Assembly (NCBI RefSeq): GCF_004005845.1
Contig: NZ_SADE01000001.1
Coordinates: forward strand, 1,674,001 to 1,738,000
Length of the DNA: 64,000 nucleotides
Reading direction: 5' to 3'
DNA from: Hwanghaeella grinnelliae
Lineage (GTDB): Bacteria > Pseudomonadota > Alphaproteobacteria > UBA8366 > Aestuariispiraceae
A model generated the notes under the pieces. It ran no database searches, had not been told where the DNA came from, and worked only from the letters and a program-made list of their open reading frames with translations. The position numbers and the translations under genes were made by a program. This document shows positions 9,977-46,160 of the stretch, one piece after another. Position 1 is the first letter of the stretch. Each line of letters starts with the position of its first letter.

Positions 9977-10364
9977 CGCCTATCTCATAGTTGTGTTGTT
10001 ATTATTTGATGCTTCCAAAGATAGATAAAAGCACAGAGTCGCACCGTCCTGGGCCTAACTACTTGGACCTAAGTAATTGCCAATCCGGGAAGCGCTTCCT
10101 ACATGTAATTCCATCGGGTGGGGTGTATCTCACCATACCGTGATCCTGTATGGCACCCGCTGCGTAATACTATGCAAGTATAGCGAAGACTGACTTTCGC
10201 GGGTATCTTGACCAATCAAGCCCTTAACACGCCGTTGAAGAGGGTAAAACTGTCGTCAACGGGGTTTGCCAGCCCTAGGTAAATGCGATAAGCAGCGGTC
10301 CTTCGCGGTATGGGGGCTGCCGCTAGGATATTGTTTTCGAAAACGAATGGTGCGCCCAGACCCA
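9977..10364. other. 388-base intergenic region upstream of ribA
   Basis: Contains the promoters of two divergent genes. A perfect 12-base palindrome GGAAGCGCTTCC lies at 10088-10099 and an inverted repeat ATACT-N5-AGTAT at 10167-10181. No FMN-riboswitch core was recognised before ribA, and no convincing small gene. Confidence 0.4.
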
Positions 10365-11576: not shown

Positions 11577-11626
11577 CGAACGGTCACGACCCCGACGTCC
11601 CCTCCACAACAACCCAGGAGAGTGTG

Positions 11627-12232: not shown

Positions 12233-12278
12233 CTAGGACGACAGGCCAACGGTAGGGCCTGTGGCCGTCATCGTCTAG
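12233..12278. terminator. Probable bidirectional terminator hairpin
   Basis: Nested inverted repeats between convergent genes: CTAGGACGA pairs with TCGTCTAG, and inner CAGGCC (12242-12247) with GGCCTG (12256-12261). No long T tract, and it overlaps the stop of the IclR gene. Confidence 0.4.
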
Positions 12279-13042
12279 CCTCGACCGATGTATCCAAGGC
12301 GCTTGGATATCCCCGTCACCGCCTCCTTTAGCGGGGGCGTGTAACGTCGGGCGTCTTCCAGACGAAACAACGGGACTGAAACGCTGACGCTGGCCACCGG
12401 ATTGTCGGTACTGTCGCAGATCGCGGCCCCGAAACAGACAATCCCGATTTCGTTTTCCTGGTCGTCCCGCACAAAACCCTGATCCGCGGCGTGCCGTACG
12501 ATCGCGCGAAGGTCCTCGCGGTCCGTCGTGGTGAACTCGGTCAGCGCGGGCATCTCTATTCGATCGATCAATGCGTCCGCTTGCTGCGCCGGCATTGCGC
12601 TTAGAAACGCTTTGCCGACAGAGGTGGAGTGGAAGTTGATCCGTGTCCCGATCGTCGATGTCATCCGCACCGCCTCCCGGCTTTCCATTTTGTCGATATA
12701 AACCAGTTCGTCGCCACTGCGGATCGCCAGATGTACGGTTTCGCCGGTCTCATTCCTTAAGCGCGTCAAATAGGGTTCGGCTTCCCTGCGAACGTCGTTC
12801 TGCGCCAGGGCCGTACGTGCCAAGCTGATGACGCGTCCCCCAATGCGATAGCGGTTTTCAGCAGTGGCTTCGATCAGTCCCTCCGCTTCCAGGGACGCGA
12901 TGATTCTGTACAGGGTAGGGCGGGTCAGGCCGCATTGTTTCACCAGGGTGGCCCGGCTCACGGCCTCTGCCGCGTCCGCGATTGTTTGCAGCACGCCAAT
13001 GCTGCGCGCAAAGCTCTGGGCTCCCTGAACCGATGTCGACAT
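12275..13042 (-). CDS. IclR-family transcriptional regulator
   Basis: 255 residues. An N-terminal winged helix-turn-helix (SFARSIGVLQTIADA...TLVKQCGLTRPTLYRIIASLEAEGLIE) is followed by the IclR effector domain (YLTRLRNETGETVHLAIRSGDELVYIDKMES, HSTSVGKAFLSAMP, IGIVCFGAAICD). IclR proteins regulate catabolic operons in response to an aromatic or hydroxy-acid ligand. Divergent from the SDR/cupin/SDR operon, with an inverted repeat in the shared region. Confidence 0.9.
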   Translation of the reverse strand: MSTSVQGAQSFARSIGVLQTIADAAEAVSRATLVKQCGLTRPTLYRIIASLEAEGLIEATAENRYRIGGRVISLARTALAQNDVRREAEPYLTRLRNETGETVHLAIRSGDELVYIDKMESREAVRMTSTIGTRINFHSTSVGKAFLSAMPAQQADALIDRIEMPALTEFTTTDREDLRAIVRHAADQGFVRDDQENEIGIVCFGAAICDSTDNPVASVSVSVPLFRLEDARRYTPPLKEAVTGISKRLGYIGRG

Positions 13043-13070
13043 CGACCCGTTACTCCCTCAGTGGCGGCAA

Positions 13071-13097
13071 TTGACAGGTTGTGCATGGCTGTATAGC
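13071..13097 (+). promoter_or_regulatory. Candidate promoter of the SDR/cupin/SDR operon
   Basis: Perfect TTGACA (13071-13076) followed after 15 bases by TATAGC (13092-13097). The spacer is short. The operator repeat begins 10 bases later, where the transcription start should be. Confidence 0.5.
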
Positions 13098-13106
13098 GTT
13101 CATAAA

Positions 13107-13131
13107 ATGGACATTAGTCCATATTATGGAC
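13107..13131. promoter_or_regulatory. IclR-type operator (ATGGAC half-sites)
   Basis: ATGGAC-ATTA-GTCCAT is an inverted repeat at 13107-13122, and a third ATGGAC half-site follows at 13126-13131, 19 bases from the first. It lies just past the -10 and is suited to repression by the divergent IclR protein. Confidence 0.65.
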
Positions 13132-13156
13132 AAATTCAAGAAGAGAAAGTGCCCTG

Positions 13157-13861
13157 ATGGTTTCCACATCTTCTCCAACCGTTTTGGTCACAGGGGCGAC
13201 AAGCGGTATTGGCCAGGCAATAGCCCGCGGTTTTGCAGCGGCCGGACACAGGGTTTTCGCCGTTGGCGTCGGCACGATACCGGAAGCCGAGGAAAACCTG
13301 ACCTATGGGATGCTGGACGTGCAGGACAGCGACGCGGTGAACGCGCTGGTGGCGCCGCTTGGCGCGCTTACGGTCGTCATCAACGGAGCAGGAATCATCC
13401 GGCGCGAAGCCGAACACGATCCGGCGGTTTTCCAGCAGGTCATCGACATCAATTTGAACGGTACGATGCGGGTTTGCGCCGCCGCCCGCCCGGCCCTGGC
13501 CGCAAACAAAGGGTCGATCATCAATATCGCTTCGATGCTCAGCTATTTCGGCGGCGGGCTCGTGCCCGGATACGCGGCGTCGAAGGGCGGCATCGCCCAG
13601 TTGACGAAATCACTGGCCATTGCCTATGCGCCGGATGGAATTCGGGTCAATGCCTTGGCGCCGGGGTGGATTGCGACGCCCTTGACCGAAGGTTTGCGCA
13701 ACGATCCCGCACGCTCGAACGCCATCCTCGGACGCACGCCCATGGCCCGTTGGGGAACGCCAGAGGATTTGGTCGGCCCGGCGCGTTTCCTTGCCAGTCC
13801 TGAAGCCGGATTCGTTACCGGAAGCATTCTGAATGTCGATGGCGGTTACGCCGCAATGTGA
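13157..13861 (+). CDS. Short-chain dehydrogenase/reductase
   Basis: 234 residues, classical SDR. TGATSGIG (12-19) binds NAD(P); NGAG (about 75-78), the catalytic Ser in NIASM, and YAASK with the Tyr-Lys pair (about 140-144) are all present; PGW...TPL and a C-terminal GSILNVDGGY follow. First gene of the IclR-linked operon; the cupin gene starts 17 bases after its stop. Substrate unknown; with a hydroxyacetophenone-dioxygenase-like neighbour, an alcohol/ketone step on an aryl side chain is plausible. Confidence 0.85.
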   Translation: MVSTSSPTVLVTGATSGIGQAIARGFAAAGHRVFAVGVGTIPEAEENLTYGMLDVQDSDAVNALVAPLGALTVVINGAGIIRREAEHDPAVFQQVIDINLNGTMRVCAAARPALAANKGSIINIASMLSYFGGGLVPGYAASKGGIAQLTKSLAIAYAPDGIRVNALAPGWIATPLTEGLRNDPARSNAILGRTPMARWGTPEDLVGPARFLASPEAGFVTGSILNVDGGYAAM

Positions 13862-13878
13862 AGGAAAAGGATAGTCTG

Positions 13879-14409
13879 ATGCCAGTTGTCGAAGTCGACG
13901 AAAATCCCCGTATTCCCTATCAACTGCCAATGCCACCCGATGCATTGCCTGAAATCGTGGTGCCGGATGCCGTGTCCGCCAACGATGATCGCATGTGGGT
14001 ACGGCAGGCGGAGCATGTGTTCTTTCGCCCGCTCTGCTTGAACGTCTCGCAGGGATATTGGATGAATCTGCTGAAGGTCACCAAATCCGGCGTGCTGTCG
14101 CGGCACCGGCACCCGAACGCGGTGCATGGTTTCGTGTTGAAGGGACATTGGCACTATCTGGAACACGATTGGGTCGCTGAAGAAGGGGGCTATGTCTATG
14201 AGCCGCCCGGCGAGACGCATACGCTTGTGGTGCCCGACGATGTGGATGAGATGATCACCTATTTTCAGGTCAACGGCGTGATGTACTATGTGGATCCCCA
14301 CGGTAAACATCTGGGCTACGAGGACGTCTTCACCAAGATCGACATGTGTCGCGCGCATTTCGAGAAAGTCGGCCTAGGCGCCGACTATGTGAACCAGTTC
14401 ATTCGTTAA
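13879..14409 (+). CDS. Cupin, 2,4'-dihydroxyacetophenone dioxygenase-like
   Basis: 176 residues from the ATG at 13879, behind an AAGGAAAAGGA ribosome site. Resembles the 2,4'-dihydroxyacetophenone dioxygenase (DAD) family: FRPLCLNVSQGYWMNLLKVTKSGVLSRHRHP, with metal-binding HRH (about 75-77), then VLKGHWHYLEHDW, YEPPGETHTL and YVDPHGKHLGYEDV. DAD is an Fe-dependent cupin that cleaves the side chain of 2,4'-dihydroxyacetophenone to 4-hydroxybenzoate and formate. The family is broader than the characterised enzyme, so the substrate here is inferred. Confidence 0.75.
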   Translation: MPVVEVDENPRIPYQLPMPPDALPEIVVPDAVSANDDRMWVRQAEHVFFRPLCLNVSQGYWMNLLKVTKSGVLSRHRHPNAVHGFVLKGHWHYLEHDWVAEEGGYVYEPPGETHTLVVPDDVDEMITYFQVNGVMYYVDPHGKHLGYEDVFTKIDMCRAHFEKVGLGADYVNQFIR

Positions 14410-14509
14410 CCCGGTCTGACCAGTGGTTTGATAGAGACAACCGGAGGGGTCCCTAGCGGGGCAGTCCAATCGACTAACCTCCAGCATCCAACAACGTAAG
14501 GAGTTCTAA

Positions 14510-15217
14510 ATGAACGTATCCGGGAAGAAAGCCGTCGTCTTCGGCGGCACATCGGGCATTGGCCTGGCAACGACGAAGATGCTCGCCGAAGGCGGCGCAA
14601 CGGTCGTGGCAATCAGCCGCAACCCCGACAAAGCGGGACCCATGCCCGACAATGTCACGACCCTATCCTGCGATGTTATGGATCAAGCGGCTGTCGAAGC
14701 GCTGCTGAACGATCTTGCCCCGTTCGATATTCTTGTCAGTGCGGCGACCGGTGGCAGCCGCGCCATAGGGCCGTTTCTTGAGATGAGCATGGACGGCTAC
14801 AAGGCATCCTTCGACAAGTTATGGGGATATGCCAACGTTGTCAGATATGGTGCCAAGCATGTCACGGATGGCGGGTCCATCACCCTTGTTTCCGGTGCGC
14901 CTGCGCGTAATTGCCGACCGGGACAGATCGCTCTTTCGTCCGTCGGTGGCGCGGTCGAAGCCATGGTGCGCGCAATGGCCCGCGAATTGGCGCCGCGGAT
15001 CCGCATCAACGTCGTTTCTCCGGGCACGATCGATACGCCGATGGTTGCCGCGCAGGGCGCCGAACGCGAAGAGCTCTATAAGAACCTTACCAAAAACAAT
15101 CTGATCCCCCGCGCCGGGACCGCCGATGAGGTGGCCGAGGGAATCATGTTCGCGATCACAAATGATTTCGTGACCGGCACTACGGTGGATGTCGACGGCG
15201 GATGGCTTCTTGGCTGA
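14510..15217 (+). CDS. Divergent SDR-family protein without YxxxK
   Basis: 235 residues, with AAGGAG seven bases before the ATG. The Rossmann nucleotide motif GGTSGIG (12-18), NVVSPGTIDTPM and a C-terminal VDVDGGW identify an SDR. At the catalytic position the sequence reads RPGQIALSSVGGAVEAM, so neither Tyr nor Lys of YxxxK is present. SDRs of this PGQ-AL--VGGAVEA type recur in proteobacteria, so this is probably a subfamily trait; either the chemistry differs or it is non-catalytic. Third gene of the IclR-linked operon, 100 bases after the cupin. Confidence 0.8.
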   Translation: MNVSGKKAVVFGGTSGIGLATTKMLAEGGATVVAISRNPDKAGPMPDNVTTLSCDVMDQAAVEALLNDLAPFDILVSAATGGSRAIGPFLEMSMDGYKASFDKLWGYANVVRYGAKHVTDGGSITLVSGAPARNCRPGQIALSSVGGAVEAMVRAMARELAPRIRINVVSPGTIDTPMVAAQGAEREELYKNLTKNNLIPRAGTADEVAEGIMFAITNDFVTGTTVDVDGGWLLG

Positions 15218-15222
15218 TTGAA

Positions 15223-15276
15223 GTCTTTCGTTCAAGGGGCAAGGCGCGGACGTCGTCCGGTCCCTTGAGCGAAGAC
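15223..15276 (+). terminator. Long inverted repeat after the SDR/cupin/SDR operon
   Basis: GTCTTTCGTTCAAGGG (15223-15238) pairs almost fully with CCCTTGAGCGAAGAC (15262-15276), with CGGAC/GTCCG nested inside. No T tract, so it may act as a transcript-end stabiliser or imperfect terminator. Confidence 0.5.
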
Positions 15277-15327
15277 TACGAGGAATGACAGCGGGGCCGA
15301 ATACGAGCCGGTTGGGTCTATACTGGT

Positions 15328-15945
15328 CTATGTTGGGCCGGTGCCGGGCAACTGGCGGTCCGCCCATTCCCGGCGCGTAATTCGGAAACCGGGAAGGGTG
15401 GTCTGGAAGGCTCTTGTCGGGCCGGCAGAGCCCAAGCCGCATTTCTGAAGCACACGGGCCGAAGCGGTGTTCTCCGGGTCGACGACAGCAACGATTTCGT
15501 CCAGGGGCGATTGTTCGAACGCAAAACGGATCAACCGGCTTGCCGCTTCAGTTGCGTAGCCTTGGCCCCAGGCGGACTTCTTGAGGTGGTAACCGATCTC
15601 GATTTCCCTATCGGGTAGACCGGACCCGTCTATCAGATGCCACTCGGTATCTGGTTCTTCGACGGCCATTGGCAACAAGAAAACAGTACCGAATTTCTCT
15701 CCCGTCTCACGGCCGACCAGGGCCCAGATGCCAATGCAGCCCTCGGCACACCGGCGCGTCAGATCATGCATCAGCGCGGGAATCCGCTCGGGCTTTTCAA
15801 CCGGCCCGACAAACTGCATCACGTCGGGATCGGTGCCGATTTCCACACAAAGGTCGCGATCGTCGTGGGTTAAAGGGCGCAACAACAGCCGCTCTGTGTC
15901 CAACTCCAGGATCACCGATCCGCCTTTGTCTTCGCTGCCGTTCAA
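15328..15945 (-). CDS. GNAT-family N-acetyltransferase (RimJ/RimL-like)
   Basis: 205 residues from a TTG at 15945, which overlaps the stop of the upstream membrane-protein gene (TTGA); a GTG at 15915 beginning at LELDTERLLLRPL is an alternative. GNAT features: TERLLLRPLTHDDRD start, IGYHLKKSAWGQGYATEAASRLIRFAF with the acetyl-CoA loop (QGYATEA), and VDPENTASARVLQKCGL. Such enzymes acetylate N-termini or small amines. Last gene of a minus-strand operon with the membrane protein and CDP-alcohol phosphotransferase. Confidence 0.8.
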   Translation of the reverse strand: MNGSEDKGGSVILELDTERLLLRPLTHDDRDLCVEIGTDPDVMQFVGPVEKPERIPALMHDLTRRCAEGCIGIWALVGRETGEKFGTVFLLPMAVEEPDTEWHLIDGSGLPDREIEIGYHLKKSAWGQGYATEAASRLIRFAFEQSPLDEIVAVVDPENTASARVLQKCGLGSAGPTRAFQTTLPGFRITRREWADRQLPGTGPT

Positions 15946-16796
15946 TACGGTGACCCGCCGCCCATCGCGAAACTGATCGCCGCAGCCGCGATGGCGGGCG
16001 GGAAGGCGAGGATGGCGACTTTGACGCTATAGACGACGCTGCCCGCCAAGGTATCGTCGGCATGCCATCCCAAGTGATTGGCCAGGTGAACCGATACGTA
16101 GCACAGCGGCAGGGGCAGCAGGGCCCAAGGCGAAACATCCGTCAGGAACAGTGCCTGGGCGGCAAGCGGCCCCAGGACGACGATGGCCGCCGCGGCAAGC
16201 GCCGGGCCGAGCCTGATGCGCATGGCGATCGGTTCGGCCAGGATCGTCGCGCCGATGGCGACCGCGAGAGCGATGGCGAAAAATCCGCTTGTCGCCGTTC
16301 CACCGAATATCAGGACAAGGCCGAGGCCCATTGCCGCCGCACCGTGCGCGACGCGGGAAAGCGCGGTTGTCGTGGACTGTGCCAGGGTTGTCAGGGCGGC
16401 GAACAGCAATCCGACCGAAAACAGCGCGGCGAGCGCCCATTCGAGGCCGTCGAAGCGGGGAATCAGGCGCTCCAGAACCCATGCCGTGCCGCCGAAAGCG
16501 CCGATGATGGGCAGCAGCCATCCCTCCGTGCCGAGATGTTCACCCCGCCCGTAATAGACCAGGATCAGCACCGCCCCGGCGAGGATTGGCGCATAAAACA
16601 GTTTCTGTACCGATGAGGTCGGCGGGAAGGCCGGGACATCGCTGATTGCCGCATAACATCCGGCGAACCCAGCGATAACGCCCAGGATAAGAAGCAGACG
16701 GCACATCCGCACCGAGGAACTCTTGCCGGCAACCAGGGCAAGCACGCCCGCAGCGATGGCCGGTATGGCTACCAAATTCGTCAGCATTTCCAACAT
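15942..16796 (-). CDS. Polytopic membrane protein, unknown function
   Basis: 284 residues, nearly all hydrophobic: about eight to nine predicted membrane segments (for example LVAIPAIAAGVLALVAG, LLLILGVIAGFAGCYAAI, ALAALFSVGLLFAALTTLA, GLGLVLIFGGTAT, AAAAIVVLGPLAAQALFL). Conserved-looking polar residues are few: HLGTEGWLLP, RVAHGAA and NHLGWHADD. Not recognised. It lies 46 bases after the CDP-alcohol phosphotransferase gene and is coupled to the GNAT gene, so it probably serves the same envelope pathway. Confidence 0.65.
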   Translation of the reverse strand: MLEMLTNLVAIPAIAAGVLALVAGKSSSVRMCRLLLILGVIAGFAGCYAAISDVPAFPPTSSVQKLFYAPILAGAVLILVYYGRGEHLGTEGWLLPIIGAFGGTAWVLERLIPRFDGLEWALAALFSVGLLFAALTTLAQSTTTALSRVAHGAAAMGLGLVLIFGGTATSGFFAIALAVAIGATILAEPIAMRIRLGPALAAAAIVVLGPLAAQALFLTDVSPWALLPLPLCYVSVHLANHLGWHADDTLAGSVVYSVKVAILAFPPAIAAAAISFAMGGGSPY

Positions 16797-16842
16797 GGTC
16801 CGGTCCCTTCGACGGTTGTCCGACCACTATGCCGCGATTCCA

Positions 16843-17649
16843 CTAGGCGTGTTGACGTTTCATTAGAGAAATCACATCGACAGCGAAGGAGTAGAACAAA
16901 AGCGCCAGCGACAAGGCCGCGATCCATAGGCTCAAGCCGGGTGGAATGATGGGGGCCAGGCAGACGACAAGCGACACGACCTGAATGACGCAAACCGTCT
17001 TGCGGCGGATGCTGGGGCCAAGCGGCGCGCGCAGGCGGTCCACAAACAGTCCCGTAAAGACGAACAGGTACCGTAACAGGCCGGACAGGACGATCCAGGG
17101 GCCTGCCTTGCCTTGGTCTACCACCAGAATGGCCAGGATCAGGATGAAGGCCGCGTCCGTCTCCTGGTCGAATAAGGCGCCGAATGGGCTGTCGTCCCCA
17201 TTTCGGCGGGCATACCAGCCGTCGAACCCGTCCATGATCAGTGCGAAGGAACTCACTGCAACGAAGGTCCAGGCGGCGGAGGCACTCCAGGCCTGCCCGA
17301 TCGCCCCGGCGACCAGGCAGATCAAGACCCCGCGGCCCATTGTAATCGCATTGGCCGCGCCGAATCCGCCGGATTTCAGCGCGGAACGGTCCCGGAACCG
17401 GTAAAGGCCAAAGCCGATCGCCGCCACGAGGACGATGAAGGCGGATAGGGAATAGGTGATGTACAGATCCGTGAAGGCGAACAGGCGCGGCATCAGCAGC
17501 AGCCCGCCGGTCAACAGCATGGCTGCCCATAAGAAATGCAGCGCAGGCCACGCTTTTCCGCCCAGGGCCGGCAGATGGGCCATGTCGAGCGTGTTGCCGG
17601 ATTGTCTATCGTCTTTACGGATCATCGGAAACTCGGTAGCCAGAACCAT
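16843..17649 (-). CDS. CDP-alcohol phosphatidyltransferase-family protein
   Basis: 268 residues with about six membrane segments. The full CDP-alcohol phosphotransferase signature DGxxAR-x8-Gx3Dx3D is present as DGFDGWYARR...GALFDQETD (about 140-165). These enzymes move a phospho-alcohol from a CDP-activated donor to an acceptor. The signature sits in the middle of the protein, with two extra N-terminal membrane segments. The start is 24 bases from the divergent dehydrogenase start; a Met at 17625 is an alternative. Acceptor and donor unknown; context suggests a glycoconjugate or unusual phospholipid. Confidence 0.85.
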   Translation of the reverse strand: MVLATEFPMIRKDDRQSGNTLDMAHLPALGGKAWPALHFLWAAMLLTGGLLLMPRLFAFTDLYITYSLSAFIVLVAAIGFGLYRFRDRSALKSGGFGAANAITMGRGVLICLVAGAIGQAWSASAAWTFVAVSSFALIMDGFDGWYARRNGDDSPFGALFDQETDAAFILILAILVVDQGKAGPWIVLSGLLRYLFVFTGLFVDRLRAPLGPSIRRKTVCVIQVVSLVVCLAPIIPPGLSLWIAALSLALLFYSFAVDVISLMKRQHA

Positions 17650-17673
17650 TCTTTACTTGAGTTGCAAAGAAAT

Positions 17674-18687
17674 ATGGATGCTTCGCCCAATAAACCAACG
17701 CTTTTATCTAGATCTTTTTGGATAGAGGAACCCGGAATCGGGGCCATTCGCTCGTCCGAACTGGATTGTTCGAACGTGAAGGTTGCAGAAGAGGTTCTGA
17801 TCCAGGCCCGGTTCGGCGCGCTGAGCCGTGGAACGGAATCCTGCGTGTTTCAGGGTAGGGTGCCCGAAACGGAATGGACCCGTATGCGCTGCCCCTTTCA
17901 GGAGGGCGATTTTCCGGGGCCGGTGAAGTACGGCTATATCTCCGTTGGGCGTGTGCTGGACGGACCGGCGGATCTGACGGAGCGGGACGTTTTCTGCCTG
18001 TATCCGCATCAAACACTCTATACGGTTCCGGCCAGCGCGGTCACGCCCTTGCCCGACGGTGTGCCGGCGGAACGGGCGGTACTGGCCGCCAATATGGAAA
18101 CCGCGGTGAATGTCATCTGGGATGCCGCGCCGGTAGCGGGGGACACGGTGACAGTTGTTGGCGGCGGTGTCCTCGGCTGCCTGATTGCTTATCTGGCGAA
18201 GCGGGTCCCGGATGTCGCGGTGTCGGTTGTCGATCCGGATGCGCTTAAAGAGACGATATATCAATCTATTGGAGTTGATTTCTGCCATCCTGATAAAGCG
18301 CAAGGTGGGCGGGATATCGTCATCCATACCAGCGCGACGGAGGCAGGGTTGCGCCTGTGCCTGACCCTGGCACGCGACGAAGGACGGATTGTCGAGGCCA
18401 GTTGGTATGGCGACCGGGAGGTCACGCTGCCCCTTGGACAGGACTTCCATTCACGACGCCTTCAATTGATCGGATCGCAGGTCGGCATGGTATCTCCCGC
18501 CAAGCGCTCTACCTACAGCTATGCGGACAGGATGGCCCTGGCGCTCGGCTATTTGACCGATCCTGTCCTGGACACGCTTTTCACGCATGAGATCGCGTTC
18601 GACGACCTGCCGGAGCGGTTGCCGGAATTCGCGGTGAACGGAAGCGGGGTGGCCTGCGTCCGAATCCGCTATCCAGACGACACTTGA
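17674..18687 (+). CDS. MDR-superfamily (zinc-less) dehydrogenase
   Basis: 337 residues from the ATG at 17674; the upstream in-frame extension overlaps the divergent gene and lacks dehydrogenase features. Medium-chain dehydrogenase layout: N-terminal GroES-like part (FGALSRGTESCVFQGRVP, GYISVGRVLDGP), then a Rossmann fold with VVGGGVLGCLIAYLAKR (about 160-176) and VSVVDPD. The usual catalytic and structural zinc Cys/His ligands are not recognisable. Related proteins are annotated as zinc-binding alcohol dehydrogenases. First gene of a five-gene operon. Confidence 0.8.
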   Translation: MDASPNKPTLLSRSFWIEEPGIGAIRSSELDCSNVKVAEEVLIQARFGALSRGTESCVFQGRVPETEWTRMRCPFQEGDFPGPVKYGYISVGRVLDGPADLTERDVFCLYPHQTLYTVPASAVTPLPDGVPAERAVLAANMETAVNVIWDAAPVAGDTVTVVGGGVLGCLIAYLAKRVPDVAVSVVDPDALKETIYQSIGVDFCHPDKAQGGRDIVIHTSATEAGLRLCLTLARDEGRIVEASWYGDREVTLPLGQDFHSRRLQLIGSQVGMVSPAKRSTYSYADRMALALGYLTDPVLDTLFTHEIAFDDLPERLPEFAVNGSGVACVRIRYPDDT

Positions 18688-18716
18688 ACCACTTCAGCCT
18701 TGGAAGGACTCTCCCC

Positions 18717-19127
18717 ATGTTTGCCCTGACCGTCCGCGATCACTTGATGATCGCTCATAGCTTTACCGGAGAAGTCTTTGGTCCGGCACAAAAACTCCAC
18801 GGCGCCACATATATTGTCGATGTCGAGTTTCAGTGCGCTGAGCTGGACGCGGACGGCCTCGTCGTGGATATCGGTCTGGCGTCCCAGGCCCTGTCGAAGG
18901 TGATGGAAACCTATAACTACAAGAACCTGGACGAGGTGCCGAGCTTGTCGGGCATGAACACGACCACCGAACAAATGGCGAAGGTGGTCTTCGACGACAT
19001 GGCCGCGCGGATCGCCGCCGGCGATTTGGGGCCGGGCGGCCCGCGCCTGTCGGGCATGAAGGTCAGCCTGCACGAATCCCACATTGCTTGGGCTAGCTAT
19101 GAAGGCGCGCTGGGAAACGGGGCCTGA
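18717..19127 (+). CDS. 6-pyruvoyl-tetrahydropterin synthase-like protein with altered active site
   Basis: 136 residues from the ATG at 18717 (GGAAGGA ribosome site). The PTPS/QueD fold is recognisable: MIAHSFTG, KLHGATYIVDVEF, GLVVDIG, YNYKNLDEVPS, NTTTEQMAKVVFD and VSLHESHIAWASY. Against the canonical enzyme, the second zinc His of HGH is Ala (HGATY), the catalytic Cys before it is missing, and the DH-x-L motif reads NYKNLD; the late TTTE and HES acidic residues are kept. It therefore probably does not make pyruvoyl- or carboxy-tetrahydropterin in the usual way. Second gene of the operon; from memory this variant recurs beside the same neighbours in other alphaproteobacteria. Confidence 0.75.
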   Translation: MFALTVRDHLMIAHSFTGEVFGPAQKLHGATYIVDVEFQCAELDADGLVVDIGLASQALSKVMETYNYKNLDEVPSLSGMNTTTEQMAKVVFDDMAARIAAGDLGPGGPRLSGMKVSLHESHIAWASYEGALGNGA

Positions 19128-19168
19128 TGCCCTTCTGACTGTTGGCTGACCGTTAGAAAGGCCCGCTC

Positions 19169-20236
19169 GTGGCGCAGAACCAAACCATCCATTTCATCTT
19201 TCCCGGTGACCCGGATACCCGAACGGGCGGATACGCCTATGGGCGCGAGATCGTCGCTGCGATGCGGCGGGCGGGGGCCAAGGTCCAGGTCGTGGCCTTG
19301 CCGGATGGCTTTCCGGTACCGACGGATGATATCCGACGGCGGGCCGCGGGCATGCTCGCCGAAATACCCGATGGCGCCGCTGTGATCTTCGACGGACTGG
19401 CCTGCGGGGTGTTGCCGGAAGAAACAGCGGCCCTGAGTGCCCGCACGCGTCTCACCGCACTGGTTCATCACCCGCTCGCAGATGAGTCGGGACTTGAGGA
19501 AAGTGAATCAAGGCGCTTGTTTGAAAGTGAAAAACAAAGTCTGACATATGCTCGTCATGTGATTGTGACCAGCGGCTATACCGCTTTGCGGCTGCGCGAT
19601 TTTGGGGTTGAGGATGACCGTGTCACGGTGATTGAACCGGGCACGGAAGCTGCTCCCTTGGCGCGGGGGACGTATCCCGATGGACCTGTTTCCCTGCTGG
19701 CTGTCGCCAGCGTGACGCCGCGCAAAGGATATCCCGACCTGTTGCAAGCCTTGAAGCCGCTGGGAGATCTGGACTGGCGCTTGGACTGTGTCGGCGGTCT
19801 TGAGATGAGCCCGGCGCATGCCCGGGGCGTTCTGGCGAAGGCGGCGGATTTCGGCGACCGGGTTCGGTTTCATGGGGCGCTGCCGCCTGATGCCTTGCCC
19901 CCCTTGTATGACAGTGCGGATCTGTTCGTATCGCCGTCGCATTACGAAGGGTATGGCATGGCAATCGCCGAAGCGGCGGCCTGCGGCTTGCCGATCCTGG
20001 CCGCGTCCGGCGGCGCCGTGCCCTTTACCACCGCCGGGCGCGCGGCCCGCTTGATTAAACCCGGCGACATTTCCGGCCTTTCCGCTGCGTTGAAGGGGCT
20101 GATTGGCGATCCGAAGGCCCGCCAGGGCTTGCGGGAGGCTTCCCTGGCGGCACGGAAAGAGCTGCCCACATGGGATGATTCCGGAATGCGCTGCTTTTTA
20201 TTAATGCGTGGCTTGGCGAAGGACGACCAAACATGA
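19169..20236 (+). CDS. GT4-type glycosyltransferase
   Basis: 355 residues from a GTG with AGAAAGG upstream. GT-B layout: N-terminal TRTGGYAYGREIVAAMRRAG, mid-protein VIVTSGYTALRLRDFGV and VTVIEPGTE, then AVASVTPRKGYPDLLQAL (donor-domain start) and PSHYEGYGMAIAEAAACGLPILA (about 252-274), the nucleotide-sugar motif of GT4. It transfers a sugar from an NDP-sugar in the cytoplasm. Its stop overlaps the start of the methyltransferase by four bases (ATGA), so the two are translationally coupled. Confidence 0.88.
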   Translation: MAQNQTIHFIFPGDPDTRTGGYAYGREIVAAMRRAGAKVQVVALPDGFPVPTDDIRRRAAGMLAEIPDGAAVIFDGLACGVLPEETAALSARTRLTALVHHPLADESGLEESESRRLFESEKQSLTYARHVIVTSGYTALRLRDFGVEDDRVTVIEPGTEAAPLARGTYPDGPVSLLAVASVTPRKGYPDLLQALKPLGDLDWRLDCVGGLEMSPAHARGVLAKAADFGDRVRFHGALPPDALPPLYDSADLFVSPSHYEGYGMAIAEAAACGLPILAASGGAVPFTTAGRAARLIKPGDISGLSAALKGLIGDPKARQGLREASLAARKELPTWDDSGMRCFLLMRGLAKDDQT

Positions 20237-21057
20237 CCGGACCGTTGGAAAGTTTCGACGCGGATTGGCTGACATTGCGGGAACCAGCGGATGCCGCGGC
20301 GAGGTCTCCCGTCCTGGCTGGAATTTTGTCCGCATGGCTGCTGGATACGCTGTCCGGACGCCGTATCGCCTCCGTTGTCGATTTTGGGGCCGGAACCGGG
20401 TCGGCCATGCGCTGGCTCGCGCCGCGTCTGCCGGTGCCGCAGTCTTGGCGCCTGGTCGATGGGGATGCGGGGTTGCTGGAACGCGCCAAGGATACTGTAC
20501 CGCTTCCCGTTGCCGGCATCGAAACGACGCTGGCGGACCTGCGGGACGCCGATATGGTGGGTTTGATCGGCGGGGCGGATGTGCTTTCGGCCTCGGCGCT
20601 GCTGGATCTTGTTTCCGCCGCTTGGATCGACCGGCTCGTGGCCGCATGCGCGGAGACCGGGACCGCGGCCTGGCTGACGCTTTCCGTTGACGGGGCGGAT
20701 GCCTGGTTTCCGGCGTTGCGCGGGGATTGGGCCGCGGGCAGGGCCTTTGCGCGTGATCAGGCCCGGGACAAGGGGTTTGGACCATCATTGGGTCCAGCGG
20801 CTGTTTCGTACGCCGCCCTGCGGTTCCGGGATGCGGGGTTCAAGGTTGGAAAGGCGAAAAGCGACTGGCGCCTTGGGCCCGGCGCGGCGGCGTTGCAGCA
20901 GGAATTGCTGCGCGGGCACGCCCTGGCGGCCATGGGCGCGGATCCGGCCCGGGGCAGAATTCATGAGGCCTGGGCGCATCGCCGTCTTTACGAAATCGCT
21001 GCCGGTCGCGGCGGTGTCCGGATCGGGCACACCGATTTGCTGGCGCTGCCCGCATGA
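20233..21057 (+). CDS. Class I SAM-dependent methyltransferase
   Basis: 274 residues. SAM-binding motif I VVDFGAGTGSAMRWLAPRL (about 48-66), then WRLVDGDAGLLERA (motif II acidic loop) and GIETTLADLRD. DVLSASALLDLVSAAWIDRL follows where motif IV lies. Sandwiched by ATGA overlaps between the glycosyltransferase and the flippase-like gene, so it probably methylates the product of this pathway. Confidence 0.82.
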   Translation: MTGPLESFDADWLTLREPADAAARSPVLAGILSAWLLDTLSGRRIASVVDFGAGTGSAMRWLAPRLPVPQSWRLVDGDAGLLERAKDTVPLPVAGIETTLADLRDADMVGLIGGADVLSASALLDLVSAAWIDRLVAACAETGTAAWLTLSVDGADAWFPALRGDWAAGRAFARDQARDKGFGPSLGPAAVSYAALRFRDAGFKVGKAKSDWRLGPGAAALQQELLRGHALAAMGADPARGRIHEAWAHRRLYEIAAGRGGVRIGHTDLLALPA

Positions 21058-21974
21058 CAGGGCTCCACCCCCGCCTGTCATTCGTTCTGAAGCTTCTTGT
21101 TTGCCTGCTGTTGCTCGGCTTTGTCTGGCAGGTGGCCGGCGGGCCGGAAATACTGATCGCGCTGGGCGGCGCGGACCCGGTCTGGTTGGCGGCGGGCTTC
21201 GGTTTGATCCTGCCGCAGACCGTCCTGTCCGCAGTCCGCTGGCGATTGGTGGCCGCTCGATTGGGCGTGACGATCGGCACAAAAGCCGCCATCTCGGAAT
21301 ACTATATCGCCATCTTCCTGAACCAGGTTCTGCCGGGCGGTGTCGCAGGCGATATCACCCGTGTGACACGGCATGGTTCCGCCCTTCGAAAAAGCGCCTT
21401 GGCACATGAGGGGACCGGTGGGCGGGGATACGGCGTCGCGGCCAAGGCGGTCGTCTATGAACGCACGGTGGGCCAGATTGCTATGGTGGCCCTGTCTATT
21501 CCCGGACTGGCCCTATGGCGGGCGGAAGCCGCCTGGATCGCGGGGGGGATACTGGCCGTCCTGCTGGCTTTGGCTATCTTGGCGCCGGTCAAGGGCTGGA
21601 TCGGGCGGCAGATAGGGGATTTCCGGAAAGCCGTCCTCAAACAAGACGTGATCGTCAGGCAAGCGATGCTCTCGGGATTGATTGCGGGAAGCTATGTACT
21701 GGTTTTCTGGTGCTGCGTGCGCGCGCTCGGCATTTCCTTTTCCGCGGGAACGGCGCTCACCGTTCTGCCGCCCGCCTTATTGGCGATGGCGATCCCGATC
21801 ACGCCGGCCGGTTGGGGGCTGCGCGAGGCCGCCGCCGTCGGCATGTGGATTGCCGCCGGGATGCAGGCAGGTGACGCGGCGGCGGCGTCAATTCTCTACG
21901 GTCTGGTAAACTTGGCCGGCGCGTTGCCGGGGGCTGCTTTCCTGGCAGTGGGACCCAGGACCGGGAACACCTGA
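21054..21974 (+). CDS. Lysylphosphatidylglycerol-synthase-TM / UPF0104-type membrane protein
   Basis: 306 residues with about eight membrane segments. Family motifs: SAVRWRLVAARLG, SEYYIAIFLNQVLPGGVAGDITRV, VYERTVGQIAM and ITPAGWGLREAAAVG. This is the flippase-like domain of MprF without the synthase domain; stand-alone members sit next to glycosyltransferases and are thought to help move lipid-linked products across the membrane. Last gene of the five-gene operon, with an ATGA overlap to the methyltransferase; only 20 bases separate it from the convergent sulfatase-like gene. Confidence 0.82.
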   Translation: MTGLHPRLSFVLKLLVCLLLLGFVWQVAGGPEILIALGGADPVWLAAGFGLILPQTVLSAVRWRLVAARLGVTIGTKAAISEYYIAIFLNQVLPGGVAGDITRVTRHGSALRKSALAHEGTGGRGYGVAAKAVVYERTVGQIAMVALSIPGLALWRAEAAWIAGGILAVLLALAILAPVKGWIGRQIGDFRKAVLKQDVIVRQAMLSGLIAGSYVLVFWCCVRALGISFSAGTALTVLPPALLAMAIPITPAGWGLREAAAVGMWIAAGMQAGDAAAASILYGLVNLAGALPGAAFLAVGPRTGNT

Positions 21975-21994
21975 ATTGCTCGGGTGAGGGACCG

Positions 21995-23674
21995 TCAGGA
22001 CGCCGCGCCGAAGGGGCGCGCACATCCCTCGGCAGGGCCGCGGTCCCCGAAATGGGCGACCATGCGCTGAAGGATCCAATCCATTCCGTACAGAACCTCG
22101 CCTCGTTTCGGGGCAAGGCCCGGTCGGTATCCGTCGGCCAGGAAGCAGGCGATCAGGTCCTTGCGGCCGCTGATCACATGGATTGGCGCTGCCCGTCCGC
22201 CCAGATTGCCGCTGACCACGCTCCAGGGCTGATGATCGCCCAGGATAATCACCAAATCATCCGGCTTTGTGTGACGTTCCGCGAAATCGAGCGCGGCGCG
22301 CAGGCTGTATGCAGCCCCGGCAATGTATCCATCCGCCGGGTCCGCCCAGTCCGCTCGTGTGAAACTGCCTGCGGCCTCCGCCGCTGGGGCCCAGACGCTG
22401 CCATCCAGAATCTTGGTACGATCTTCGATGAACGGGGGTATCGGCCGGAAGGGATAGTGGCTGGAAATCAAAGCCAATTGGACAAAGTTGGGGCGGTCCT
22501 TGGAGATCAGCTCGGGGATCCGTTCCAAAGTGAACTGGTCTGGAATGCCGAAATAGCCAAACCGCACGCCGCCATAATCCAGGTCGCCCGCCGTATACAC
22601 ATGGTCGAACCGCAACAATCGGCTTTCAGGCCAATAGCGCTGAATGCCCGGCATGACCAGAGATGTTTCATAACCGCTGCGCCGCAGGATTTGGGTCATC
22701 GTGTCCAGGTCCGACCGCAGATAGGCGCGATATTCAAGGTTCGTGTCGATCCATGCGCCGGCGGTCGATGTCAGATGGGCCAGCCAACTCAATCCCCCGT
22801 AAGTCGGGGATTCCAGCAATGTGCTTACCGCTTCCCGTCCGTTGCCGTTCAGCGTGTCGTCGTAGCGATCATAAAGGCCTTCGATGACGGCACGGTGTTC
22901 GTCGCGTTCCAAAAGGCTGGCGCCATAGGATTCGACGAATATCAGATAGACATTCGTTCCGGCGAGCCGGGGCAGCGTGGTTTCACCATCCCGCACTTCA
23001 CCACGTTGTTGGCGGTATTCATCCACGACAGCGCGTCCGTCATCGAACCAGAGGCTGATGATCTTGGCATGGTATGAGGCGGCCTGGATCGCCGGCGCGG
23101 AACTGGCCATCGCCGTGCTGGTGACGATGCCGGTGAGGTCTACCGCCTGCGCGGCGACCAGCAGGGTCAATCCGGCGACCGCCTTTTTCATGCCGGCAGG
23201 CGGTGCAAGAGATTCCATTTGCGCGCCAAGGTAACGCGCGGCGAGGGCGAACAGGCCGACCGTGCCCGCCAAAATGGCGAGGACCGCAAGGGTGAGGGGC
23301 GCGACGATGAACCACCCCATGGAGACGGCCATCAGTTCCAGAACGTGCGGGATCTGCGCAGCATCGAAGATCAGGTCGATGGTCCGTCCGTAAATTGCGC
23401 TGCTGGCGACATCGATCAGGTGAAGCAACGCACCGACCGACAAGAAAATCGCGGCAAACGGCAATCCAACACGTTTGAACGATGGCCATGTGGCATTCGC
23501 TGCAAGGCACAGAAGTACGATCGCTACTTCAATGGGCAATTTGGGTCTTACAAGCCAGTTTTGACCGTAGATATTAAACTCTATGTTGAAAAAAAGGATG
23601 AGCAGACCCGTCACCGCGAGGAGCTTGATGGTGCAGTGTAATTTGGTGGGGTTTGCTGAACGTCTGCGATCCAT
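21995..23674 (-). CDS. LtaS/sulfatase-type membrane hydrolase-transferase
   Basis: 559 residues from the ATG at 23674 (GAGAAG ribosome site); an in-frame GTG at 23764 is less likely. About five N-terminal membrane segments (roughly 10-200), then a periplasmic alkaline-phosphatase-superfamily domain: NVYLIFVESYGASLL (metal Glu), SPTYGGLSWLAHLTS with the likely Ser/Thr nucleophile, PNFVQLALISSHYPF and VIILGDHQP (metal Asp-His). LtaS and EptA relatives move phospho-alcohol head groups onto lipids or glycans. Convergent with the flippase-like gene, and a natural partner for the CDP-alcohol phosphotransferase. Confidence 0.82.
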   Translation of the reverse strand: MDRRRSANPTKLHCTIKLLAVTGLLILFFNIEFNIYGQNWLVRPKLPIEVAIVLLCLAANATWPSFKRVGLPFAAIFLSVGALLHLIDVASSAIYGRTIDLIFDAAQIPHVLELMAVSMGWFIVAPLTLAVLAILAGTVGLFALAARYLGAQMESLAPPAGMKKAVAGLTLLVAAQAVDLTGIVTSTAMASSAPAIQAASYHAKIISLWFDDGRAVVDEYRQQRGEVRDGETTLPRLAGTNVYLIFVESYGASLLERDEHRAVIEGLYDRYDDTLNGNGREAVSTLLESPTYGGLSWLAHLTSTAGAWIDTNLEYRAYLRSDLDTMTQILRRSGYETSLVMPGIQRYWPESRLLRFDHVYTAGDLDYGGVRFGYFGIPDQFTLERIPELISKDRPNFVQLALISSHYPFRPIPPFIEDRTKILDGSVWAPAAEAAGSFTRADWADPADGYIAGAAYSLRAALDFAERHTKPDDLVIILGDHQPWSVVSGNLGGRAAPIHVISGRKDLIACFLADGYRPGLAPKRGEVLYGMDWILQRMVAHFGDRGPAEGCARPFGAAS

Positions 23675-24021: not shown

Positions 24022-26376
24022 ATGGATTTCACAGTATTTTTGGATCGCTTCTTTGTGCCTGTTGGCAGCGATGTGTTGCTGGCCTCCGAATTGTACAAGG
24101 GCGAGTACAATGCATTCCTAGTCATCCTCTCCGCCCTTATTGCAATTTCCTGCGCCTATATTGCCCTATCGGCGGTGGGCCGATCCCGGAAAGCCAGCAG
24201 CTTGCTCGTTCACGCAGGATGGATGGGCGTTGCCTCGATAACCATGGGGATCGGTGTCTGGTCGATGCATTTTGTCGGCATGCTGTCGTTCGAACTTCCC
24301 TGCGCGGTTGAATACGATTCCGTACTCACATTCGTGTCGATGCTGCCGAGCATTATTGCCAGTATGATCGCGCTTTCGATCATCCGCCTTCGCCGCGTGA
24401 CAACCCTTCCCCTGCGTCTTTTTGGGGGCGTATTGATGGCCAGCGGGATTGCGGCCATGCATTACACCGGCATGGCGGCCATGCGTATGGATGCCATGCT
24501 GTACTACGACGGCGCCCGCGTCACCCTGTCCGTCTTACTCGCGGTCAGCTTGGCTTGCTTGTCGCTCAGCCTACCGAGTTTTTTCCTAGGCAGGACCGGA
24601 ACCAAGGTCCTTGCTGTTTTGAATAGGCGCGGCATTGTGCCTGTACGGGCTGTGGCCGGCATGTCGGCGGTCGGTCTGGGGTTGGCGGTAACCGGTATGC
24701 ACTACACCGCAATGTGGGCCGCGTATTTCGTGCCCTGGCCAGGGGGAGTGGCCGCCCACCACTCTTGGGAACCGGGCATTCTAGCCTTGTGGATCGTGCT
24801 GGCGGTTGTGTTGTTGTCCACCGCGGTCATCGCCATCGTGTTTGCGTCCAAGCAGAGGATGCTCGCTGACGAGTTGAAGGCCCAGGTGGCCTTGCGGTCA
24901 AGGGTGGAAGCGGCGGTTGAAGAGCAGCGGGGCCGGTTGCAGGCGATCATCGACAACGTTGTCGATGGCATCATCACGATTAACGCGTCGGGAACGATCC
25001 AGCATTGGAGCCCGGCGGCCCAGGCCCTGTTCGGCTACACCGACGAAGAAGTGACCGGACAAAACGTCAACATGCTAATGGCCGAGCCGTTCCTAGACGA
25101 GGACGATGACAGTTCGAACGGACTTCACCTAAGAGAGCGCCGTCAGGTCGTGGGCGTTGGCCGCGAAGCTGTCGGGTTGCGCAAGGATGGTTCAACTTTT
25201 CCCTTGGACCTTTCAATCGGATATGGGGAAGTCAACGGCAGGCCGTTCTACACAGGTGTGGTGCGGGACCTGACACAGCGAAAAAAGGAACTCGCCATCC
25301 TTGAGGAAGCCCGGGACCGTGCCCAACAGGCTGTGAAGGCGAAGTCAGAGTTTCTGGCGAATATGAGCCATGAAATACGGACCCCGATGAATGGCGTTCT
25401 TGGATTTCTAGGGCTTGCCCTGAATGAGAAGAGTTTGAGTCCGGAAGTTCGCTCCTACCTCAACACAGCGGAGAAGTCGGCGAACAATCTGCTGGTGATC
25501 ATCGACGACATCCTGGACTTCAGCAGGTTGGAGAGCGGTCGGATCCGTTTGGAGAGCGTATCCTTCGATCTTAGAAACCTGGTGTCCGAGACCGTGCATG
25601 GCCTGTCGACATTGGCGGATGACCGGTCTTTGACCGTGACGGTACGGGTCGCTGAGGATGCGCCTGTTCTGGTCAAGGGCGACCCCATGCGTATTCGGCA
25701 AATCCTGATCAACCTGATCAGCAACGCGATCAAGTTCACCCATGAAGGCGGTGTCTCCGTCGATGTATCGCGGTTTTCTGCAGAGTCGGATCAAATTCTG
25801 TTCACGGTTGCGGATACCGGGATCGGTATGTCGCCTGAGACCCTGGAACGCGTGCTGCAACCGTTCGAGCAGGCGGATTCGGCAACGCACCGGCTATACG
25901 GCGGAACCGGTTTGGGAACGACGATTTCACTGCAACTGGCCCATTTGCAGGGCGGTGACCTTTGGGCCGAGTCGGAGGAGGGCAAGGGCAGCACCTTCTT
26001 CTTCACAGCGCTTCTGCCGGAGAGCAGTGAACTAGACGTTGCTTCGACCCCCGCACTGAATGCCGAGTTGTCCGAGGTGGATGGGCTGCGGGAGCCTGAC
26101 CCCGGTATGGACGACCTGTTTGGGGGTGGGCCCATCGAGCCGCGGCCTGAAAAAGCGTTGGGTGCTGATCGCGAGACGCTGCGGAAAATGTTCGAGGATC
26201 TTTACAAGGCGCTTGATGAGGACAATCCGGAACCGGTCGAACACGTTCTCGATGAAATGTCCGACGTTCTGGACCGGCGTTTTGTAACCCAGATGCGAAA
26301 ATCGGTTTCGCAATTCGATTTCGGCCTCGCCAGAGAGAAGGCGGATCTGATGATGGCGGATTTGCATTTACGGTGA
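24022..26376 (+). CDS. MHYT-PAS sensor histidine kinase
   Basis: 784 residues. An MHYT membrane sensor (about 30-275) has three repeats with WSMHFVG (80-86), AMHYTG (145-150) and GMHYTA (225-230), thought to bind copper and sense O2, CO or NO. A PAS domain (about 304-420) is followed by a HisKA domain with FLANMSHEIRTPMNGVLG (phospho-His 450) and HATPase_c with INLISNAIKF, DTGIGM and GTGLGTTIS; the last G-box has Thr where GLGL is usual. The C-terminal 100 residues are acidic, then helical (LYKALDEDNPEPVEHVLDEMSDVL), unassigned. The HD-GYP regulator starts two bases after its stop. Confidence 0.9.
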   Translation: MDFTVFLDRFFVPVGSDVLLASELYKGEYNAFLVILSALIAISCAYIALSAVGRSRKASSLLVHAGWMGVASITMGIGVWSMHFVGMLSFELPCAVEYDSVLTFVSMLPSIIASMIALSIIRLRRVTTLPLRLFGGVLMASGIAAMHYTGMAAMRMDAMLYYDGARVTLSVLLAVSLACLSLSLPSFFLGRTGTKVLAVLNRRGIVPVRAVAGMSAVGLGLAVTGMHYTAMWAAYFVPWPGGVAAHHSWEPGILALWIVLAVVLLSTAVIAIVFASKQRMLADELKAQVALRSRVEAAVEEQRGRLQAIIDNVVDGIITINASGTIQHWSPAAQALFGYTDEEVTGQNVNMLMAEPFLDEDDDSSNGLHLRERRQVVGVGREAVGLRKDGSTFPLDLSIGYGEVNGRPFYTGVVRDLTQRKKELAILEEARDRAQQAVKAKSEFLANMSHEIRTPMNGVLGFLGLALNEKSLSPEVRSYLNTAEKSANNLLVIIDDILDFSRLESGRIRLESVSFDLRNLVSETVHGLSTLADDRSLTVTVRVAEDAPVLVKGDPMRIRQILINLISNAIKFTHEGGVSVDVSRFSAESDQILFTVADTGIGMSPETLERVLQPFEQADSATHRLYGGTGLGTTISLQLAHLQGGDLWAESEEGKGSTFFFTALLPESSELDVASTPALNAELSEVDGLREPDPGMDDLFGGGPIEPRPEKALGADRETLRKMFEDLYKALDEDNPEPVEHVLDEMSDVLDRRFVTQMRKSVSQFDFGLAREKADLMMADLHLR

Positions 26377-26377
26377 G

Positions 26378-44231: not shown

Positions 44232-44265
44232 AAAAAGACCCGGGTGCTTTCCCGGGCCATTTTTC
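44232..44265. terminator. Bidirectional terminator
   Basis: AAAAAGA, then CCCGGG-TGCTTT-CCCGGG (44239-44256), then CCATTTTT. Lies between the convergent regulator and VPLPA-CTERM genes. Confidence 0.85.
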
Positions 44266-44279
44266 AATCATACGCGGAA

Positions 44280-46160
<1,881 letters not shown>

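Follow-up and report, generated by a model that had tools for sequence, protein, structure and literature searches.

What is made by a gene cluster in which a protein of the 6-pyruvoyltetrahydropterin synthase (PTPS) family is encoded beside a medium-chain dehydrogenase/reductase (MDR), a family 4 glycosyltransferase (GT4), a methyltransferase and several enzymes of lipid handling? The question was raised by a stretch of 64,000 nucleotides from the alphaproteobacterium Hwanghaeella grinnelliae (assembly GCF_004005845.1, contig NZ_SADE01000001.1, positions 1,674,001 to 1,738,000), which was analysed as a whole and is called the window here (Table 1). The gene set was found to be common to many distant bacteria and thus to represent one shared pathway. 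Its product seems to be a sugar-bearing, vitamin-like compound, which roughly one in two alphaproteobacterial carriers would tie to a membrane lipid and use extracellularly.

One gene set in many distant bacteria

When 385 Alphaproteobacteria genomes were searched with thresholds of E ≤ 1e-5 for PTPS, 1e-30 for MDR, 1e-15 for the CDP-alcohol phosphotransferase and 1e-20 for the LtaS-type enzyme, PTPS-like matches were found in 47 genomes. Two of these (G116 and G361, E ~1e-6) were not considered further, since they had the HGH motif of canonical QueD. The other 45 genomes, which carry the PTPS subfamily known as PTPS-IV and are spread over 24 families, were exactly the genomes in which MDR was found. 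Because MDR occurred only together with PTPS-IV in this sample, both proteins probably act on one intermediate. The phosphotransferase was present in 24 genomes, 23 of the 45 carriers and 1 of the 340 others, and the LtaS-type enzyme in 25 genomes (23/45 and 2/340, respectively). Both enzymes were found in 22 carriers, only one of them in 2 and neither in 21 (Fisher p 1.3e-10, ignoring kinship). A stand-alone C-terminal domain of RibD (RibD_C) was detected in 35 of the 45 carriers compared to 1 of the 340 other genomes at E ≤ 1e-45, a cut-off placed at a gap in the match list. Weaker RibD_C copies were present in the locus of three carriers (G161, G259 and G337), and most of the remaining weaker matches were open frames long enough for full RibD.

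Gene neighbourhoods were compared in two sets of loci. The 46 class loci comprised 44 of the PTPS-IV subfamily and two QueD-like controls (L075 and L076). The 80 named loci were the best 80 of at least 581 relatives confirmed by tblastn, ranked by likeness to the window PTPS, so that percentages among them are not population rates. For the profile counts, the open frames in both sets were searched with gene-family profiles drawn mostly from the named loci; the tblastn, profile and colinearity counts differ slightly from each other. Absences are weak in L050, L055, L061 and L072, which end at contig edges, and L080, L081 and L138 come from the same genomes as L032, L031 and L167, respectively.

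The genes for MDR, PTPS and GT4 were colinear on one strand in 41 of the 44 subfamily class loci and in 78 of the 80 named loci, and the methyltransferase gene continued this order in 37 and 73 loci, respectively. By profile search, the number of class loci (out of 46) and named loci (out of 80) was found to be 43 and 79 for MDR, 42 and 79 for GT4, 38 and 72 for the methyltransferase family, 35 and 58 for RibD_C, 18 (one weak and distant) and 43 for RibA, a GTP cyclohydrolase II (GCH II), 15 and 71 for the phosphotransferase, 10 and 10 for an OpgH-like glucan synthase, 8 and 39 for a creatininase-like protein, 6 and 17 for an FkbM-type protein, and 5 and 20 for the LtaS-type enzyme. The gene for the flippase-like protein was found in 56 named loci and also in L166 and L168. 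Homologues of a gene whose product we take to be of the YceI family were present in 12 class loci and 15 named loci. The QueD-like controls contained none of the partner families in the profile search, and L075 gave only a weak PTPS match.

The gene was present in the one other genome of the same genus and in 3 of the 12 other genomes of the same family. In L168, from the same family, the order was RibA, YceI, membrane protein, phosphotransferase, MDR, PTPS, GT4, methyltransferase, flippase-like protein and LtaS-type enzyme, which is the order of the window minus a stretch at approximately 12.3-15.9 kb. It follows that this stretch looks inserted in the window and that RibA and YceI are members of the cluster. 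In L166, which is from the same genus and ends at a contig edge, the genes from phosphotransferase through LtaS-type enzyme were in the window order. The flippase and LtaS-type genes were missing from the locus in L167 and L169, both from the same family, and RibD_C and creatininase were present there. A homologue of the membrane protein (41% identity over 266 amino acids) was found at the matching place in L168, and none was found in the 46 class or 80 named loci.

These findings show that the genes are not casually adjacent, which is ruled out by co-occurrence, by the synteny of L168 and by colinearity. The first-pass annotation of this DNA had taken the genes, the phosphotransferase and LtaS-type enzyme included, as one functional unit, and co-occurrence across the 385 genomes bears this out, as does the neighbourhood comparison that it had proposed as a check. 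Its limits for the cluster were too narrow, since RibA, YceI and the RibD_C of the relatives (35/45 genomes) had been missed, and the alphaproteobacterial scope that it gave for the neighbourhood is exceeded by a set that crosses phyla. The GNAT gene, which it had counted as a member, is probably outside the pathway: tblastn matches to it were found in only 2 of the 80 named loci, at 27-30% identity, and in none of the 46 class loci.

The named loci span Streptomyces, Micromonospora, Actinomadura, Halomonas, Variovorax, Thauera, Thermoleophilaceae and an Acidobacteria bin. On plasmid pOB3b1 of Methylosinus trichosporium, MDR, PTPS and GT4 were found with a gene at the place of the methyltransferase, a RibD family protein and mdoH. 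Haloarcula plasmid pHsi388 (L162) carries creatininase, phosphotransferase, MDR, PTPS, GT4, a methyltransferase-like gene and a sulfatase-like gene that did not reach the Pfam cut-off. The PTPS of this plasmid reads HSHH at the place of HGA in the bacterial subfamily and is therefore a relative and not a member of the same subfamily. That approximately ten families recur as a set in Streptomyces, Halomonas and alphaproteobacteria, and in related form in Haloarcula, speaks for a widely shared product, either a metabolite or a membrane lipid.

Two further observations concern the distribution. Genomes of 1.4-1.6 Mb (L068, L073 and L074) retain MDR, PTPS, GT4, methyltransferase, RibD_C, RibA and creatininase together, and the retention of the cluster in genomes of this size suggests a valuable function. 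A PTPS copy 52% identical to that of the window lies on a Streptomyces anthocyanicus plasmid (L161, 10001-10426) among regulators and cupins, where the usual partners are missing by annotation.

PTPS-IV, RibA, RibD_C and MDR

Enzymes of the PTPS family hold zinc with three His residues and use a catalytic Cys, an Asp-His pair and a Glu that anchors the ring. In the alignment of the 45 class carriers, the FGPAQ signature was conserved, with F21, G22, P23 and A24 in all sequences and Q25 in 43. The position of the catalytic Cys was occupied by A24 and that of the third zinc His by A30 in all 45 sequences; no Cys was found before HGA, and neither CxxxHGH nor CxxxxxHGH occurred. Position 68 was Y, F or L, compared to His in the two QueD-like controls. 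H14, H28 and E120 were kept in 45/45 sequences, and E120 was also present in QueD-like L076. Judged by this alignment, the catalytic residues of PTPS are gone from the PTPS-IV protein, and so is one of the ligands to zinc. It thus has the PTPS domain and the Glu in common with PTPS-I to III (6-pyruvoyl- and 6-carboxytetrahydropterin synthases) and differs from them in the third zinc His, the Cys and His68. A role in queuosine or 7-deazapurine synthesis was rejected, because the score against QueD was 47.3 bits compared to a cut-off of 89.25 and CxxxHGH is missing. The sole PDB sequence match of the window PTPS-IV was SCO6650 of Streptomyces coelicolor (3d7j; E 9.4e-49 over 132 residues), a protein that reportedly has neither zinc nor triad nor PTPS activity and no established function. 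A second PTPS type, approximately 30-33% identical, was seen on rhizobial megaplasmids (plasmid matches H21-H24 and H28-H30).

The PTPS-IV subfamily and two of its neighbours are already published. In a 2017 neighbourhood network of COG0720, PTPS-IV forms one cluster of 561 sequences, preferentially with FGPAQ, and has PF00925 and PF01872 (RibD C-terminal domain) as network neighbours (PMC5445326). These three features correspond to the FGPAQ, RibA and RibD_C of the window and its relatives, except that PF00925 is named there as FolE2/GTP cyclohydrolase I, whereas the window protein is a GTP cyclohydrolase II. The accessible parts of PMC5445326 and PMC5041015 do not mention MDR, GT4, methyltransferase, phosphotransferase, flippase, LtaS-type enzyme or creatininase as partners. 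As far as could be seen in the literature found, in which coverage of subscription journals was limited, PTPS-IV has been named without a tested function, the whole gene set is undescribed, and the wider set, the exact co-occurrence with MDR, the tie between phosphotransferase and LtaS-type enzyme, and the lipid reading do not appear. The earlier statement that no characterised pathway has this set therefore still stands in that literature, with the reservation that the subfamily and its PF00925 and PF01872 neighbourhood had been published (PMC5445326).

The window RibA was found by alignment to retain both the Cys motif for zinc and the catalytic Tyr, and in this it is like the canonical GCH II. 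GCH II and its S. coelicolor variants are the subject of Spoonamore et al. 2006, a reference listed in PMC3509567. Two GCH II matches were found in the Hwanghaeella genome. The other is part of a RibBA fusion (C1:1758683-1759162, L078, outside the window) in which the Cys motif appeared by eye to be missing, so no intact GCH II apart from the window RibA was found, and riboflavin synthesis must draw on it. Among 56 cluster RibA sequences aligned, the catalytic position was Tyr in 43, Met in 9 and His in 4; the alignment took only open frames in two sequence clusters, and the weak RibA of L049 was dropped before the count. All 13 of the Met/His copies, which differ in this from the window RibA and are all from Actinomycetota, had a creatininase-like gene in the locus, compared to 22 of the 43 Tyr copies. 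In S. coelicolor, the GCH II variant SCO6655 reportedly stops at the formamidopyrimidine, with the formyl group kept. The constant pairing of Met/His RibA with creatininase would be expected if creatininase removed the formyl group that these RibA leave. By its pattern of occurrence, the creatininase-like gene fits a deformylase for formamidopyrimidine, although not as its sole role; a deformylase role everywhere was rejected, since the gene also occurs in 22 of the 43 loci with Tyr RibA.

The RibD_C profile was closest to solved diaminopyrimidinone reductases (6p8c, 8.6e-46; 2azn, 1.3e-40), and no deaminase domain was found on the one cluster RibD_C that was scanned. The RibD_C of the relatives thus resembles the 2,5-diamino-6-ribosylamino-pyrimidinone 5'-phosphate reductases in profile and differs from them in its glycosyltransferase and methyltransferase neighbours. 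For MDR, no Pfam match was obtained, and the nearest NCBIfam models, BchC and threonine dehydrogenase, were far under their cut-offs. In 61 MDR sequences the conserved motifs were SRGTE, PVKYGY, PHQ, ETAxN and SQVG; the N-terminal half, before the nucleotide-binding part, contained no Cys at 95% conservation and one at 80% or more, as judged from the sequence alignment. These residues give no clear support to a reading of MDR as a zinc enzyme; the public annotation of one relative's MDR is zinc-binding. Since RibA can supply it, the reductase of the relatives lacks a deaminase, and PTPS-IV keeps the ring-holding Glu, the non-deaminated RibA product would be the simplest common precursor. The precursor had been taken earlier to be shaped by the dehydrogenase and the PTPS-like protein; the known PTPS active site is missing from the latter, and RibA, which had been left out, is the most likely source.

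A proposed lipid-bound product and its alternatives

The phosphotransferase was found to have an intact DxxDGxxARx8GxxxDxxxD motif, in which D140, D143, G144, R148, G157, D161 and D165 did not vary across 23 sequences and A147 hardly did; the cluster member from L070 was another protein by alignment and was left out of this set. Its AlphaFold2 (AF2) model (pLDDT 82.8) had PgsA as the top fold match (7drj, TMt 0.65). The enzyme therefore resembles the CDP-diacylglycerol:alcohol phosphatidyltransferases, such as PgsA and phosphatidylinositol-phosphate synthase, in catalytic motif and first fold matches, and no NCBIfam equivalog cut-off was reached by it or by any of the nine window proteins first listed. 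The AF2 model of the LtaS-type enzyme (pLDDT 79.4) showed N-terminal membrane helices and an alkaline-phosphatase-like domain. The nearest structure to the C-terminal domain was LtaS (2w5q; Z 21.3, rmsd 4.0, 286 residues), followed by LtaP and EptC, and with full-length EptA (5fgn) the alignment covered 407 residues (Z 18.9, rmsd 5.7). The enzyme thus shares fold and N-terminal helices with the LtaS, EptA, MCR and GacH transferases, at 9-17% identity in the matches listed. LtaS-type enzymes bind metal and use a Thr nucleophile. In 17 sequences E248, S296, H406, D480 and H481 were invariant, with metal and nucleophile roles assigned by order only; the invariant Ser296 would lie near the Thr nucleophile expected. 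In the 22 genomes with both lipid enzymes, the two genes lay within 20 kb of each other in 6; in 4 they shared a contig at a distance of 67 kb to 3.4 Mb, and in 12 they were on different contigs.

The best reading, to which we give an even chance, is that a pyrimidine or pterin derived from RibA is glycosylated and methylated, becomes the head group of a phospholipid, is flipped and is handled outside by the LtaS-type enzyme. From the enzyme families we infer the following steps, their order and the product. RibA would open GTP to 2,5-diamino-6-(phosphoribosylamino)pyrimidinone. The ribose of this product would be reduced by stand-alone RibD_C in most relatives, with no deamination of the ring; in the window genome the housekeeping RibD, or a bypass, would have to replace the missing stand-alone RibD_C. 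MDR could then oxidise the sugar-derived polyol side chain, and PTPS-IV may bind the 2-amino-4-oxo ring and help to turn it, by closure or rearrangement, into a pterin-like core, to which a sugar would be added by GT4 and a methyl group by the methyltransferase. In approximately half of the alphaproteobacterial carriers, the window included, the phosphotransferase would join the product to a phosphatidyl group, giving a phosphatidyl-X that the flippase-like protein could turn outward and from which the LtaS-type enzyme might transfer or release the phospho-head group outside the cell. In carriers without this lipid add-on the product may stay soluble. The families fit the product proposed at first, in which sugar, methyl group and phospho-alcohol were combined, but the lipid module belongs to about half of the alphaproteobacterial carriers only. 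Should the product prove to be pterin-derived and lipid-bound, it would represent a new class of envelope cofactor. It would also explain two orphan results from S. coelicolor, in which a homologue of PTPS reportedly lacks PTPS activity and a GCH II reportedly stops at formamidopyrimidine.

A bolder version, which we regard as doubtful, is a pterin route independent of GTP cyclohydrolase I. RibA and a RibD-type reductase would yield a ribityl-diaminopyrimidine, MDR would oxidise its 2'-hydroxyl to the same ketose that arises by Amadori rearrangement in the GTP cyclohydrolase I reaction, and PTPS-IV would close the ring without the usual zinc site. The glycosylated, methylated pterin would be the head group of a new phospholipid, and after flipping, the LtaS-type enzyme would move the phospho-pterin onto an envelope acceptor, giving a surface-anchored cofactor active in redox or light reactions in several phyla, with a related haloarchaeal version.

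Several results weigh against the lipid-linked, RibA-derived product. The window RibA must also feed riboflavin, RibA was missing from 28 of the 46 class loci (two of them the controls) and from 37 of the 80 named loci, and no stand-alone RibD_C was found in the Hwanghaeella genome. The fold match of the phosphotransferase was weak (E 0.04), and choline phosphotransferases, for which a CDP-alcohol is the substrate, came first among its profile matches. The flippase-like gene was found in none of the 46 class loci by profile search, and half of the class carriers are without the lipid module. When kinship was taken into account, the pairing of phosphotransferase with LtaS-type enzyme gave 4 well-supported independent pairs, of which 3.6 changed the same way and 0.1 the opposite way (median p 0.125), which is consistent with the same trend and not significant. 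Moreover, the non-carrier G127 (74% complete) has phosphotransferase, LtaS-type enzyme and RibD_C, whereas neither PTPS nor MDR passed the thresholds there; its contig L170 carries only RibD_C and phosphotransferase of the cluster. Finally, a role in F420 synthesis has been printed for PTPS-IV (PMC5041015).

Among the alternatives, the one that survives best, although we consider it unlikely, is that the core makes a soluble, secreted pterin or pyrimidine glycoside and that a separate envelope module, consisting of phosphotransferase and LtaS-type enzyme, travels with it. The phosphotransferase was indeed missing at the threshold in 22 of the 45 carriers, and an OpgH-like gene was present in the locus of 10 of these 22 (L043, L046, L047, L048, L052, L053, L058, L059, L067 and L070) compared to none of the 23 carriers with phosphotransferase, a difference that was not significant with kinship. 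In contrast, the two lipid enzymes were almost confined to genomes with the core, and the phosphotransferase gene lay inside the locus in 71 of the 80 named loci.

A second alternative, decidedly improbable in our view, keeps the lipid and removes the pterin: RibA would be a housekeeping bystander, and PTPS-IV, MDR and the others would build a lipid head group from a sugar or polyol with neither pterin nor pyrimidine. The loss of the PTPS catalytic residues, the failure to find an intact GCH II in the genome other than the window RibA, and the lack of stand-alone RibD_C there are in its favor. However, RibA and RibD_C recur beside the core across phyla, as is also apparent from PMC5445326. Moreover, stand-alone RibD_C was nearly confined to carriers, E120 was invariant, and the 13 RibA with a changed Tyr all had a creatininase-like gene.

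RibA and RibD_C lead to the precursor of F420 as well as riboflavin, and related genes lie on a haloarchaeal plasmid, which would suit a cluster serving F420 synthesis. In PMC5041015, PTPS-IV is assigned to F420 synthesis in archaea on the basis of cited unpublished work. However, in the Hwanghaeella genome (97.85% complete) CofG reached 28.9 bits compared to a cut-off of 213 and CofH 21.8 compared to 374, with none above, and CofD gave no match at E ≤ 0.001; each cut-off was exceeded by 3 of 14 control genomes. By eye, no F420 gene was seen among representative conserved neighbour families, and F420 genes were not sought in other carriers. The absence of CofG, CofH and CofD rules against an F420 product in this genome, where it is very unlikely. 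Equally far-fetched is a cluster that supplies or modifies riboflavin as a flavin glycoside or lipid-bound flavin, for which RibA and the RibD reductase domain, as enzymes of the riboflavin branch, would speak, and against which no RibB, lumazine synthase or riboflavin synthase was seen by eye among representative conserved neighbour families and no deaminase domain on the cluster reductase scanned.

Layout of the window

The nine frames reported in the first-pass annotation were all confirmed by an open reading frame check, together with their strands and the ATGA overlaps of 4 bases at the GT4/methyltransferase and methyltransferase/flippase junctions. The frames of the membrane protein and GNAT also share 4 bases, and the LtaS-type gene is convergent with the flippase gene. 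The true start of RibA is probably further in than that of the longest frame given in Table 1.

Table 1. Genes of the cluster and adjoining frames, in positions of the window
Product	Position	Strand	Remarks
RibA, GTP cyclohydrolase II	10266-11576	+	Pfam GTP_cyclohydro2 2.5e-56; longest frame
YceI-family protein (presumed), accessory	11624-12217	+	homologues in loci of relatives
GNAT	15945-15328	-	Pfam match
Polytopic membrane protein, no family assigned	16796-15942	-	no Pfam or NCBIfam match
CDP-alcohol phosphotransferase	17649-16843	-	Pfam CDP-OH_P_transf 3.5e-17
MDR-type NAD-binding dehydrogenase	17674-18687	+	ATG start
PTPS-IV protein	18717-19127	+	Pfam PTPS PF01242 6.6e-25
GT4 glycosyltransferase	19169-20236	+	Pfam and NCBIfam matches
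Class I S-adenosylmethionine-dependent methyltransferase	20233-21057	+	Pfam Methyltransf_25 below cut-off
Flippase-like LPG_synthase_TM protein	21054-21974	+	Pfam 7.6e-35
Membrane-anchored LtaS/EptA-type enzyme	23674 (or 23764)-21995	-	weak Pfam sulfatase match, 29.5 bits

Between YceI and the rest of the cluster, 12275-15327 was seen by eye to encode an IclR regulator, a short-chain dehydrogenase/reductase (SDR), a cupin-like protein and a second SDR, and GNAT (15328-15945) follows. The G+C content was approximately 0.65 at 19000-22000 compared to 0.59 around it; as there is a comparable peak at 44000-46000, this peak alone is no sign of foreign origin. In a quick tree, which bears on a recent transfer into the Hwanghaeella genome, the window was on a long, weakly placed branch. 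Beyond the LtaS-type gene, 24022-27424 was seen by eye to encode first a large, sensor kinase-like membrane protein and then a protein of response-regulator/HD-GYP type, and the receiver-domain matches near the cluster in several class loci were other response regulators.

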